Below the pieces are notes generated by a model. It was given only the letters and a program-made list of their open reading frames with translations. It was not told the origin of the DNA and did not search any database. Shown piece after piece: positions 20,386 to 24,600 of a stretch of 64,000 nt of DNA. The stretch is from contig NZ_FRAU01000010.1 in NCBI RefSeq assembly GCF_900142415.1, positions 42,548 to 106,547 on the forward strand. Direction: 5' to 3'. Position numbers and translations under genes: made by a program. This stretch comes from Rhodothermus profundi. Lineage in GTDB: Bacteria; Bacteroidota; Rhodothermia; Rhodothermales; Rhodothermaceae. Positions within the stretch are counted from its first letter, which is position 1. Each line of letters opens with the position of its first letter.

Positions 20386-21888
20386 CTAAAAAAACGTGCC
20401 ACCTCCGAAAAGAAAGCCGCTGAGGAATTGCTGCTGGCCCTGGAAGAGGGCAATCGTTTCCTGCACGCGGGCAAACTGTGCCCGAAGTTGCTCCTCGCGC
20501 CGGGCCAACTGTTCCTCAAAGGCAGCAATGCGATCGTTGAGACGACGGATGCGCGTTTCGATGGAGTCCTGCCGCTGATCAATAATGCCGCCGGTCGCTA
20601 CAAAAGCTTCCAGGCGCGTGAGCAAACGGGTTGCAATGCCGTCATTGCCGGAGAACAGGCTTTCTACGGCCTGGGGATTGCGCCGAACGGCCTGCAGCAG
20701 CGCATCTTCGTCGGTCAGGGAGAGGGTCCCGTCGTCGTTAATGGTAATGCCCAGATCAGTAATGTAATGAGGGCCTTCGGTCGGTTGGCCGCTTACTTTT
20801 CGGACCACTTCGTTACGGAGCGTAAACCGAAGGCCGGAGAATACCGGATCACCTGCAAAATCTCCCCGCGTTTCCGTTACTCCGTCGATGTTGCTTTTGC
20901 CTGTGATGTAGGTAAGCACATCGTTGTACTTCTGAATAAAATCCTCGATCTGGGCTTTGATATGCTCAATGTCAGGAGCGACAGTAAACTCGGCGGGTGC
21001 TGTGCTAACCTGTTTGAATTCCAGGGTAATCCCGGTCAGCGCGTCTGTTACTCGGTTGGCATCGCGGTAGAGCGTGAGGCCGTCGAGCACAAACTGGCTG
21101 TTAAGAGCCGAGTCGGTTTCGCTGGTGCCTACGAACGTTACCTGGCCGCCGCCGGTGCCGGTGGCCAGCGCATTGTTGTTAAGTTCCAGGGCGGCCAGCA
21201 GACCGGCTGCCGAGTCTACGAACTCCAGCCGGTAGGTGAACCCTGTTTTGCCACTGCGGAGCGAAAGACGGGCTGTGCTGCTGGTTTCGTTGATAACCGA
21301 CGCATAGGCCCGCTCGTCCGATTTGATCGTGCCGGCGTCGACGGCTGCCTGAAAGGCGTTATTGATAGCTGTGGCAATTTCCTTCAGGATGGCCTCGTCC
21401 GTTGTTCCTGTCGGATTGACCGTAACCTGAATATCGACCCGGTTGTTGGGATTCGTGTCGGTGGGACTGGCAACGCGAATGGTGAACGTCTGGGCGCCAT
21501 TGGTATCAAAGAAACTGCGCAGGGTTGATCCGCTGCTGGTGTACTGCTTGGAAATGCGGGTGTCGGCCGAGGCCAGGCGCTTGACTTCCAGCGTATGTGT
21601 GCCGAGTGCGGCCTGATCGCTGGCTGTCACCGTAAACTCGGTGGCCGACGTGGTGGCACTTTTGCCCTGAAACGGACGCGCCAGCGGATCGGTCAGGGTT
21701 TTCAGCAGGCTGTGCAATGCCGAAAGCTTGCTGTCGAAGTCGTTCATGACCCCTTTGAGCCGTTCCTGCTCGGCTTTTTTCGCCTGCAGGTCCAGCTTGG
21801 GCTGGCTTTCAATGGCCAGGATCGCACTGATCAGTTGCTCGTAGGGGTCGTTGGCGCGGTAGACAGACAGCAGCGGATTGACAGCCAT
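20386..21888 (-). CDS. fliD: FliD filament cap protein
   Basis: FliD caps the filament tip and directs flagellin insertion. The 500 residues show a FliD N-terminal domain (ILAIESQPKLDLQAKKAEQERL followed by the LTDPLARPFQGKSA segment) and a C-terminal domain with YNDVLTYITGKSNIDG, ITINDDGTLSLTDEDAL and a final coiled coil (RIRRLNDRIAAFEEQLARREEQLRAQFA). No signal peptide, as expected for an export substrate of the flagellar system. It follows fliS by 33 bases. Confidence 0.93.
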   Translation of the reverse strand: MAVNPLLSVYRANDPYEQLISAILAIESQPKLDLQAKKAEQERLKGVMNDFDSKLSALHSLLKTLTDPLARPFQGKSATTSATEFTVTASDQAALGTHTLEVKRLASADTRISKQYTSSGSTLRSFFDTNGAQTFTIRVASPTDTNPNNRVDIQVTVNPTGTTDEAILKEIATAINNAFQAAVDAGTIKSDERAYASVINETSSTARLSLRSGKTGFTYRLEFVDSAAGLLAALELNNNALATGTGGGQVTFVGTSETDSALNSQFVLDGLTLYRDANRVTDALTGITLEFKQVSTAPAEFTVAPDIEHIKAQIEDFIQKYNDVLTYITGKSNIDGVTETRGDFAGDPVFSGLRFTLRNEVVRKVSGQPTEGPHYITDLGITINDDGTLSLTDEDALLQAVRRNPQAVESLFSGNDGIATRLLTRLEAFVATGGIIDQRQDSIETRIRRLNDRIAAFEEQLARREEQLRAQFARVQETIALFQGQQQFLSGFLFGGGTFF

Positions 21889-21921: not shown

Positions 21922-22242
21922 TCAGGCAGCGCGGGCCATGACGACGCCCTCGTACCAGGCTTCTCGCAGTCCTTCTAGGATGCGTTGCACGACGCTCAAG
22001 TCGCCGATGGCGCTTTCGCGCAGGCAGAACTCGTAGAGGGCATAGAGCCGCTCGGCCAGTTCGCCGCCGGCTTCAAAGTTGAGGGCTGAAATCAGTTCGA
22101 CGAGGACAGCCCGCACTTTGGCGCGGTCGCCGCGTTTGCAGGCGGCAATGCCCAGGTCGTACAGCTTGAGAATCAACTGAGCCGGGGAGGCGCTAAGGAC
22201 GGCCTGCTCCTGATACTGACGCATGTAATGCAGCGTGCTCAT
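21922..22242 (-). CDS. fliS: FliS flagellin export chaperone
   Basis: FliS binds flagellin and keeps it unfolded before export. The 106-residue helical protein has the family opening YMRQYQEQAVLSASPAQLILKLYDLGI and the ALNFEAGGELAERLYALYEF segment, with the C-terminal helix VQRILEGLREAW. It is first in its operon, 114 bases downstream of the sigma-28-like promoter. Confidence 0.93.
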   Translation of the reverse strand: MSTLHYMRQYQEQAVLSASPAQLILKLYDLGIAACKRGDRAKVRAVLVELISALNFEAGGELAERLYALYEFCLRESAIGDLSVVQRILEGLREAWYEGVVMARAA

Positions 22243-22454: not shown

Positions 22455-23633
22455 ATGAAGCATTCCACCAGTGCGCAGCCGCTGCTGTCGCTTTGCATGA
22501 TCGTCAAAAACGAGGCCGAGTACCTGGAGACTTGCCTGAAGCTAGCGCGCCCGCATGTGGACGAAATCGTCGTTATCGATACAGGCTCAACCGACGGATC
22601 GCAGGACATCGCCCGGCGATATGCGGACGTGTTTGAGGAGATTGAATGGCCTAACTCATTTGCCGCAGCGCGTAATTACAGTCTGGACCGTGCCTCCGGC
22701 AAGTACATTTTAATCCTGGACGGCGACGAATACATTGCAGATCCTCAGGGGTGGCAGCTCATCCGCTCGGTGCTGACCCAGCGACATGTCGCCACGCTAC
22801 GGTTGAAACTACGCAACCTGCTGCCGCCGGGTCTTTTGGAGGCAGATGTTATTTACCAGGAACGAGTTTTTCCTAATGATCCATTGTTGAGATATGAGCG
22901 GAAGATACATAATCAGATTGTTGACCGAATTAAAGAGTATCGTCAATTGAAGGGGGGAGATGTCATTGATCTTCCTGTAGAAATTATTCACTTTGGCTAT
23001 GCACATAGCGAAGAAAAGACAAGAAAGAAATATATTCCAAGAATACCTCTGCTTGAAGCAGAATACAGGGAGGCAGACAATGAAGCAATGAAGTATTACT
23101 ATGCTTTTCAGTTGGGTGTAACGTTCTATGTGCTCAAAGAATATGAAAAAGCTCTAGATTATTTTTCTTGTATCGATTATGAAGTGATGAATCAGATGAA
23201 TGAGTGGAATGCTTTCTATGCCCAATTGCTTGCGGCACAGACTGCTTTAAAACTCAGAAAAATAGATACAGCTTTACAGTTCTGTGATCGTCTGGTGGGT
23301 TATAAGTTTCGCGAAGCTATCGTCTATTATGTAACAGGAATGGCATTACTGTTAAAGGGACAGATAAGAGAGGGCCTATGTTTTCTTGTGGAGGCTTTCG
23401 AAATGGGAAGAAATGAGAAAGAACAGATGAGATTTGTTATAAATGAGCGAAAAGTTGTGGAGCGAATTATAAGTATATTTAAAACGATAGGATGGAATAG
23501 GATGGCGGAAAAGATTGAACAATTGGGATATACTTCCTTTGAAAAGATGGGAGAATTACTTAAATACATTCAGCAACGGATGCTTCTAGCAATGGCGTCT
23601 TCAAAAAGTGAAGCGGCAACTCCTTCGGACTGA
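22455..23633 (+). CDS. Family 2 glycosyltransferase next to flagellin
   Basis: A cytoplasmic GT-A glycosyltransferase of 392 residues from the ATG at 22455 (a TTG nine codons earlier is weaker). The catalytic domain shows LSLCMIVKNEAEYLETCL, VVIDTGSTDGSQDIA and the metal-binding DGD at 89-91. The second half is helical, with TPR-like repeats. The first 380 bases have normal composition (36 G+C in the 60-base line at 22501), while 22840-23600 is AT-rich (25, 25 and 20 G+C of 60 in the lines at 22921, 23041 and 23461). Its place between fliS and flagellin suggests flagellin glycosylation; this is inference. Its stop codon lies inside the flagellin terminator. Confidence 0.85.
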   Translation: MKHSTSAQPLLSLCMIVKNEAEYLETCLKLARPHVDEIVVIDTGSTDGSQDIARRYADVFEEIEWPNSFAAARNYSLDRASGKYILILDGDEYIADPQGWQLIRSVLTQRHVATLRLKLRNLLPPGLLEADVIYQERVFPNDPLLRYERKIHNQIVDRIKEYRQLKGGDVIDLPVEIIHFGYAHSEEKTRKKYIPRIPLLEAEYREADNEAMKYYYAFQLGVTFYVLKEYEKALDYFSCIDYEVMNQMNEWNAFYAQLLAAQTALKLRKIDTALQFCDRLVGYKFREAIVYYVTGMALLLKGQIREGLCFLVEAFEMGRNEKEQMRFVINERKVVERIISIFKTIGWNRMAEKIEQLGYTSFEKMGELLKYIQQRMLLAMASSKSEAATPSD

Positions 23634-23772: not shown

Positions 23773-24600
23773 TTAGAACAGTTGGAGCACCGCCTGGGGA
23801 GCGGCGTTGGCCTGGGCGAGCGCGGCGATGCCGGTCTGCTGCAGGATCTGCAGCTTGGCCAGTTGCATCTGCTCGTAGGCAAAGTCGGCGTCCGCAATCC
23901 GGCTCCGCGCCGCCTCGTAGTTGTCCTTCGCCACCGCCAGATTGTCCAGCTTGAACGACAAACGACGCTGATAAGCACCAACGTCGGCGAGTTTGTTGGC
24001 GATGGTCTGGATGGCGTTGTCGATTTTCGCAATCGACGCACTGGCACTTGCCGCCGAGGAAACCACCAGGTCGGCATCGGCCACGCTCAACTGAGCGGCC
24101 GAGAGCGTGCCGATGGTGGCCGTGAAGGTGTCGCCCGCCTCGGCGTTGACCTGGAAGGTGAACGTGGTGCTGGTAAAGAGGGCCGTGCCGTTAAACTCGG
24201 TGTCGGCCACAATGTCATCGATTTCAGCGGCCAGCGCGTCGAGCTGGTCTTCGATGGCGTTGCGCTCTTCGGTGCCCATGGTGTCGTTGGCAGCCTGAAC
24301 GGCCTTTTCTTTCATGGTCTGCAGAATCTCCATGATAGAGTTCAGGCTGCTTTCGGCGACGGTCAGCATGGACTTGGCGTCGCCGATGTTGGCCAGGGCC
24401 TGTTCCTGGGCGCGGATTTTGGCTTTGAGCTTGGCGGCGATGGAGTAGCCGGCCGAGTCGTCTTCGGCGCGGTTGATGCGGCTGCCGGTGGCCAGGCGCA
24501 ACTGGCGCACACCAAGCTCACTGTTGGTGCGCTGCAGGTAGGTGTAGGCTTGCAGCGCCTGCAGGTTGGTGCTGATCCGGGTCAGGTCTCCCAACGACAT
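23773..24600 (-). CDS. fliC: Flagellin
   Basis: The filament subunit, exported by the flagellar type III system; no signal peptide. At 275 residues it is a compact flagellin: the conserved N-terminal D0/D1 (NLQALQAYTYLQRTNSELG, RLATGSRINRAEDDSAGYSI) and C-terminal D1/D0 (DNAIQTIANKLADVGAYQRRL, ending ANAAPQAVLQLF) are complete, while the middle is only about 100 residues. The ATG at 24600 is 57 bases downstream of a sigma-28-like promoter. Confidence 0.95.
   Translation of the reverse strand: MSLGDLTRISTNLQALQAYTYLQRTNSELGVRQLRLATGSRINRAEDDSAGYSIAAKLKAKIRAQEQALANIGDAKSMLTVAESSLNSIMEILQTMKEKAVQAANDTMGTEERNAIEDQLDALAAEIDDIVADTEFNGTALFTSTTFTFQVNAEAGDTFTATIGTLSAAQLSVADADLVVSSAASASASIAKIDNAIQTIANKLADVGAYQRRLSFKLDNLAVAKDNYEAARSRIADADFAYEQMQLAKLQILQQTGIAALAQANAAPQAVLQLF

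Follow-up and report, generated by a model that had tools for sequence, protein, structure and literature searches.

Why should a single glycosyltransferase (GT) gene, lying beside flagellin in Rhodothermus profundi, change sharply in base composition within its reading frame, and what does the change record? The gene lies in the window, the 64,000-nucleotide stretch of DNA analysed here; it is internal to its contig, which measures 123,848 bases and belongs to a Rhodothermus genome of 3.14 Mb. A preliminary description had read the change as the edge of a recombined or transferred C-terminal module. The genes and gene parts of the locus are given below; the names fliS, fliD, ntrC and hemB are presumptive and were assigned from position.

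20386 to 21888, minus strand: fliD, used as a flank yardstick (homology across the order; tree)
21922 to 22242, minus strand: fliS, used as a flank yardstick (homology across the order; tree)
22455 to 23633, plus strand: GT2 glycosyltransferase with a C-terminal helical TPR-like domain, 392 aa (open frame from the ATG at 22455 to the stop at 23633)
23773 to 24600, minus strand: flagellin of the short type, 275 aa, the proposed target (checked against NCBIfam)
23980 to 24276, minus strand: central region of flagellin that differs between the short and long types (alignment, distances)

The order fliS-GT-flagellin was conserved across the Rhodothermus loci and the other Rhodothermales loci laid out with them. 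In Rhodothermus a single gene separates fliS from flagellin, and no multi-gene glycosylation island lies beside flagellin. No report naming this locus in Rhodothermus was found in the available parts of the open-access literature searched. The genus was sampled by the seven species genomes of the GTDB genus, with seven full-length GT alleles (window, G001, G002, G003, G004, G005a, and G005b). In G006 the contig stops inside the GT, leaving 162 residues. Six loci contain both a full flagellin and a full GT, the flagellin of G003 being cut by the end of its contig. Flagellin copy number varies, with two tandem copies in G001, G002 and G004 (L057, L058 and L060) and one copy in the window and in G005b (L062); the tandem copies within a genome share 95-97% identity, as would be expected after homogenisation.

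The composition of the GT gene changed abruptly and in frame, as the preliminary description had stated. The maximum-likelihood change point fell at bp 391 of the gene, where G+C dropped from 57.0% to 37.6% (2-unit support interval, bp 373-413), and its log-likelihood gain of 20.0 compared with a maximum of 8.1 in 300 codon shuffles; the change is not gradual. The border had been placed near 22840 and the first 380 bases had been given as 60% G+C. The best position is about 22845, and the 5' part is indeed the richer in G+C, at 57% over the first ~390 bases.

22827 to 22867, plus strand: composition border, best position 22845 (maximum-likelihood change point)
22845 to 23590, plus strand: stretch of low G+C, 37.0% (base counts, change point)

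Third codon positions carried the drop, and amino-acid make-up therefore does not explain it: their G+C, computed without Met and Trp codons, was 64.9% in codons 1-97, 75.0% in codons 98-130 and 30.8% from codon 131 to the end. The low stretch finishes near the stop codon, with 48.8% G+C at 23591-23633 and 62.6% in the intergenic DNA that follows. It is the sole run of 740-base windows below 45% G+C in the 64 kb, and one further such run was detected in 400 kb of the same genome. This second run (L053 18101-19600; C4:138101-139600 of the window genome) contains a 365-aa minus-strand ORF that by eye resembles a lipoprotein with propeller repeats.

The drop is not peculiar to the window. In the genus, each of the seven full-length alleles falls to 30-41% G+C past its change point, with a gain exceeding its own 300 shuffles. 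Their change points (bp 242, 246, 350, 391, 403, 429, and 451) vary, so the composition border marks no single ancestral joint. Elsewhere in Rhodothermales the composition of the orthologues was even in seven of seven usable loci; an eighth examined locus, L069 (G013), is broken by an in-frame stop and was also excluded from protein alignment A1. In G099, G054, G055 and G013 the G+C of the GT, taken as a whole-gene figure only, is near the locus value. The flagellin core in the window has 62% G+C, and low G+C is limited to the C-terminal part of the transferase (GT-C). The G+C drop is an old trait of the genus and not a recent import into the window genome.

These observations bear on the idea that a low-G+C C-terminal module was transferred recently from an unrelated organism, with the composition border as its junction. 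The sharp intragenic drop would fit such a transfer, and the low G+C of the flagellin glycosylation islands of Geobacillus was read as a sign of horizontal acquisition in the available part of that report (PMC5109656). Against it stand the genus-wide drop and the phylogeny, in which the GT-C sequences of the genus form one clade (99/99) adjoining the Rhodothermales orthologues. The best match of the window C-terminus outside the genus was the Rhodothermales orthologue (161 bits); outside the order, matches reached 51 bits at best, and 60 of the 394 phylum genomes matched at all. The C-terminus of G002 matched in 20 of 114 genomes of the order. No nearer match and no foreign low-G+C source for GT-C were found in the 114 order genomes (G002 query) or the 394 phylum genomes (window query). 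In addition, over most of the gene the window, G005a and G003 alleles are about as divergent as their flanks, all three having low G+C and saturated synonymous sites, and comparison of the window allele with the other two reveals no break around codon 97 or codon 130. Judged from homology, the module is orthologous, its nearest relatives being the C-termini of the syntenic genes in Rhodothermus and then in other Rhodothermales, and the part of the preliminary description that spoke of a transferred module is not supported. We regard recent transfer from an unrelated organism as very improbable. A recent foreign import into the window genome itself is ruled out by the genus-wide drop, orthology and flank-like divergence.

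A sharper signal than composition lies ~100 bp upstream of the composition border. Similarity among diverged alleles breaks at bp 279-301, at codon ~97, just past the catalytic DGDE. Mismatch change points were computed for ten allele pairs, and this break was present in all seven pairs of diverged alleles, four between classes and three within. None of the three pairs among the window, G005a and G003 broke there; two of them break weakly toward the 3' end (window vs. G005a at codon 378 and window vs. G003 at codon 270), and the third has no break beyond those in shuffles. In the predicted structure the junction falls midway through the GT-A domain, behind DGDEYIADP, and residues L88-E92 (LDGDE) did not vary among the 14 proteins aligned.

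22455 to 22745, plus strand: 5' module, codons 1-97, the predicted nucleotide-sugar half of GT-A (common to the allele classes; follows the chromosome)
22719 to 22745, plus strand: junction motif DGDEYIADP, residues 89-97, which includes the DxD metal/nucleotide-sugar motif (breakpoint data)
22746 to 23633, plus strand: class-specific module, the predicted acceptor-side half of GT-A plus the TPR-like domain (two classes, 100/100; G002 vs. G004 mismatch)

The junction was clearest between G002 and G004, which are sisters by the fliS+fliD tree (97/100). At bp 291 (range 278-291) the mismatch between them went up from 0.031 to 0.496, and the two remained ~50% identical from the junction into the flagellin core before ~97% identity was regained within flagellin. 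Over ~19.5 kb, identity outside this block was mostly 92-100%. Nineteen of 195 100-bp bins had less than 85% identity, and all 19 lay between about GT bp 250 and the first flagellin core or in the second flagellin core. Synonymous divergence (dS) followed the same pattern, with 0.12 in codons 1-91, 0.16 in fliD and 2.17 in codons 139-375; codons 92-138 were saturated. In a 200-kb comparison, seven stretches of G002 of at least 200 bases lacked a match of at least 88%, and the GT-flagellin block (1,441 b) was among them, so divergent blocks per se are not unique to GT-flagellin; the last of the seven (13,964 b) reaches the stretch end and may reflect the limit of the G004 stretch.

A C-terminal half that evolves very fast in place, through relaxed constraint or a local mutation pressure towards A+T, would need no exchange at all. 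GT-C was indeed less conserved than the N-terminal part (GT-N) in every group tested, including other groups of the order (64-70% vs. 76-88%), and its low G+C persists although synonymous sites are saturated. Such evolution does not account for a mismatch that climbs at a single point from 3.1% to 49.6%, for the return to high identity within flagellin, or for a split that GT-C and flagellin have in common and the flanks reject; in the window's class, moreover, dN is well under dS, which indicates constraint. We consider evolution in place highly improbable.

The GT-C tree divided the alleles into {window, G005a, G003, G004} and {G001, G002, G005b} with 100/100 support, and the six-member flagellin tree reproduced this split. 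Flagellins of the short type (273-275 aa) were found in the window, G005a and G004 and those of the long type (292-293 aa) in G001, G002 and G005b; the types differ in the core. Flank data rejected the GT-C group {window, G005a, G003, G004} (p-AU 5e-31), and the G002+G004 pairing was rejected by GT-C (2.8e-5) and by flagellin (4e-60), all of these p-values being optimistic because the choice of breakpoints and clades followed inspection of the data and the alleles are few. Distances told the same story over the six loci. GT-N distance correlated with that of fliD+fliS (Mantel r 0.94) and not with that of the flagellin core (0.008), and GT-C correlated with the flagellin core (r 0.78; partial Mantel 0.81 with fliD+fliS taken out, 6 of 720 permutations). 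The clean two-type flagellin split holds for the six-row tree only, from which it was drawn: in a 29-row tree with outgroups the G004 flagellins are grouped with the long type (97/95) and not with that of the window. Outgroup flagellins were short in 20 of 20 cases.

The gene thus has a two-part structure with a repeated junction, and the class of its C-terminal part is linked to flagellin type in conflict with the flanks; the type of a glycosylation gene goes with the type of flagellin, against the strain tree. The comparison of alleles that the preliminary description called for bore out its recombined module in part. The N part follows the chromosome, and the C part recombines as a unit within the genus, beside flagellin, with a class that follows the flagellin core. 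The composition border is not the junction of this exchange, which lies ~100 bp upstream, and the window allele gives no sign of recent acquisition.

The G005 MAG has the opposite classes at the same place on two contigs (L061 and L062). The two contigs start with 151 identical bases, and the 3' end of one falls inside the other; they are alternative haplotypes of the flagellin locus, as two cohabiting strains leave. A mosaic produced by chimeric assemblies or contigs might be suspected from a MAG with both alleles and from the contigs of G006 and G003, which end in or just past the gene. Chimeras are extremely improbable, since the mosaic is also present in G002 (on one contig) and G004 (on two contigs), the window gene is internal to its contig, and all seven frames are open.

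The same haplotypes bear on an ancient balanced polymorphism, in which old classes would be kept by selection (flagellotropic phage, grazers) as the flanks recombine or sweep, with little or no import. It is favored by the opposite classes on the two contigs of one MAG and in sister genomes, by the presence of the second class also in the most divergent species (G001), and by the deep divergence of most alleles. Seven alleles cannot separate it from cassette import, and the long flagellin was found in none of 20 outgroups, which makes the dimorphism, in this sampling, no older than the genus. We hold the balanced polymorphism to be possible but doubtful. No sampled allele is close to the cassette of G002 or G004, the nearest GT-C identities being ~45-56%, and the donor of either cassette is for that reason unseen.

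The protein itself gives a basis for reading the two parts. It matched Pfam PF00535 (8e-17), and its top sequence match among solved structures was GmaR (PDB 22ao; phmmer 7.7e-26, residues 7-199); a profile search gave 2.2e-33, and the GT2/GT-A domain is thus homologous to GmaR. An AlphaFold2 model (pLDDT 90.4) placed helices at residues 186-387, and the protein stops at 392 aa, directly behind them.

23010 to 23615, plus strand: helical TPR-like domain, residues 186-387, the proposed flagellin-recognition part (secondary structure of the model; weak TPR matches; fold matches)

A TPR domain after the GT domain was found by fold, in the model, and not by family score, the Pfam TPR_1 match being weak (23.1 bits, below the cutoff of 27.8). 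The TPR proteins MamA and Pex5 were among the fold matches. The nearest whole folds were SunS/ThuS (7msp, Z 24.2, rmsd 3.5 over 279 residues), and the protein missed the cutoff of NCBIfam TIGR04195 (SunS peptide S-glycosyltransferase), with 44.1 vs. 350 bits. From these matches and the conserved neighbourhood with flagellin, the window gene most likely encodes a GmaR/SunS-like flagellin glycosyltransferase, a cytoplasmic GT-A (GT2) enzyme. In one family of the order, a second short ORF beside the transferase matches only residues ~205-353 and is a stand-alone relative of the TPR-like part (G013:C145:3603-4058, G034:C114:10180-10620, and G025:C167:33655-33945).

Several known systems resemble this one in part, as described in the available portions of the articles cited. 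In GmaR an N-terminal domain moves GlcNAc onto flagellin and a TPR domain follows (PMC9638930), so that the order of domains and the proposed substrate agree; GmaR is longer, at 637 residues, the Rhodothermus GT lacks its linker and antirepressor domains, and the available text does not mention a mosaic structure. The SunS/ThuS glycocin S-glycosyltransferases have the same overall fold, whereas the Rhodothermus GT lies beside flagellin. In FlmG of Caulobacter the TPR part binds flagellins and the GT part does not (PMC7591256), but FlmG is a GT-B enzyme with its TPR at the N-terminus, and the likeness is one of working principle only. The A and B flagellin types of P. aeruginosa each have linked glycosylation genes (PMC3958885); there, whole gene islands differ, whereas in Rhodothermus the change is within one transferase gene, past the DxD. 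The types of the Geobacillus flagellin glycosylation islands conflict with the strain tree and have ~10% lower G+C (PMC5109656), but these are multi-gene islands of 13-30 kb and not part of one gene. In Salinibacter ruber, to which Rhodothermus marinus is called phylogenetically related, recombination adds to glycosyltransferase diversity (PMC6060240). Linked flagellin types and glycosylation loci, and exchanged islands of low G+C, were already known; less usual is an exchange unit that starts inside one transferase gene, right past the DxD.

We consider it probable that the locus encodes a two-part flagellin glycosyltransferase whose C-terminal module is exchanged together with the flagellin core by homologous recombination. 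Like GmaR of Listeria, the enzyme would O-glycosylate the neighbouring flagellin prior to its export. Codons 1-97, the presumed nucleotide-sugar half ending in the DxD, are common to all Rhodothermus lineages and evolve with the chromosome, and the sequence from codon ~98 to the end falls into at least two classes of deeply diverged alleles. Recombination ends may be anchored in the conserved 5' part of the GT and in conserved flagellin sequence, exchange through conserved DNA at both ends being the simplest route, and joint exchange of GT-C and the flagellin core would keep enzyme and substrate matched. By analogy with GmaR and FlmG, from whose literature the reading of GT-C as the acceptor-choosing part is drawn, codons 1-97 probably bind the nucleotide sugar and the remainder chooses the flagellin. 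A change of acceptor specificity via GT-C, as the preliminary description had proposed, is plausible. Flagellin as the substrate, the TPR-like part as its recogniser and selection for diversity as the driver are what we infer from this arrangement.

The low G+C of GT-C calls for an explanation of its own. At four-fold sites of the window's class in codons 139-392, which are few and saturated, there were nine changes from G/C to A/T and seven from A/T to G/C, compared with 56 and 18 in fliD (Fisher p 0.13), and this test gave no sign of G+C recovery in GT-C of that class. Possible causes of the low G+C include missing G+C-biased gene conversion, expression selection or a shared allele pool of low G+C. 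One tentative proposal, which we think rather unlikely, is that the acceptor half of the GT and the flagellin core form a genus-wide, multi-allelic unit with a fixed junction past the DxD. Its alleles would be too diverged to recombine internally and would therefore, without G+C-biased gene conversion, reach an A+T-rich equilibrium of their own in a 60% G+C genome, flagellin, as a highly expressed gene, being kept G+C-rich by codon selection.

The locus is a caution that low G+C by itself is no proof of recent foreign DNA. Its persistent A+T-rich half in a G+C-rich gene tests what sets composition where allelic recombination is blocked. With matched alleles for both a transferase half and its likely substrate, the locus amounts to a natural domain-swap series, and this series offers a direct route to the residues by which a GT2-TPR enzyme picks its flagellin.
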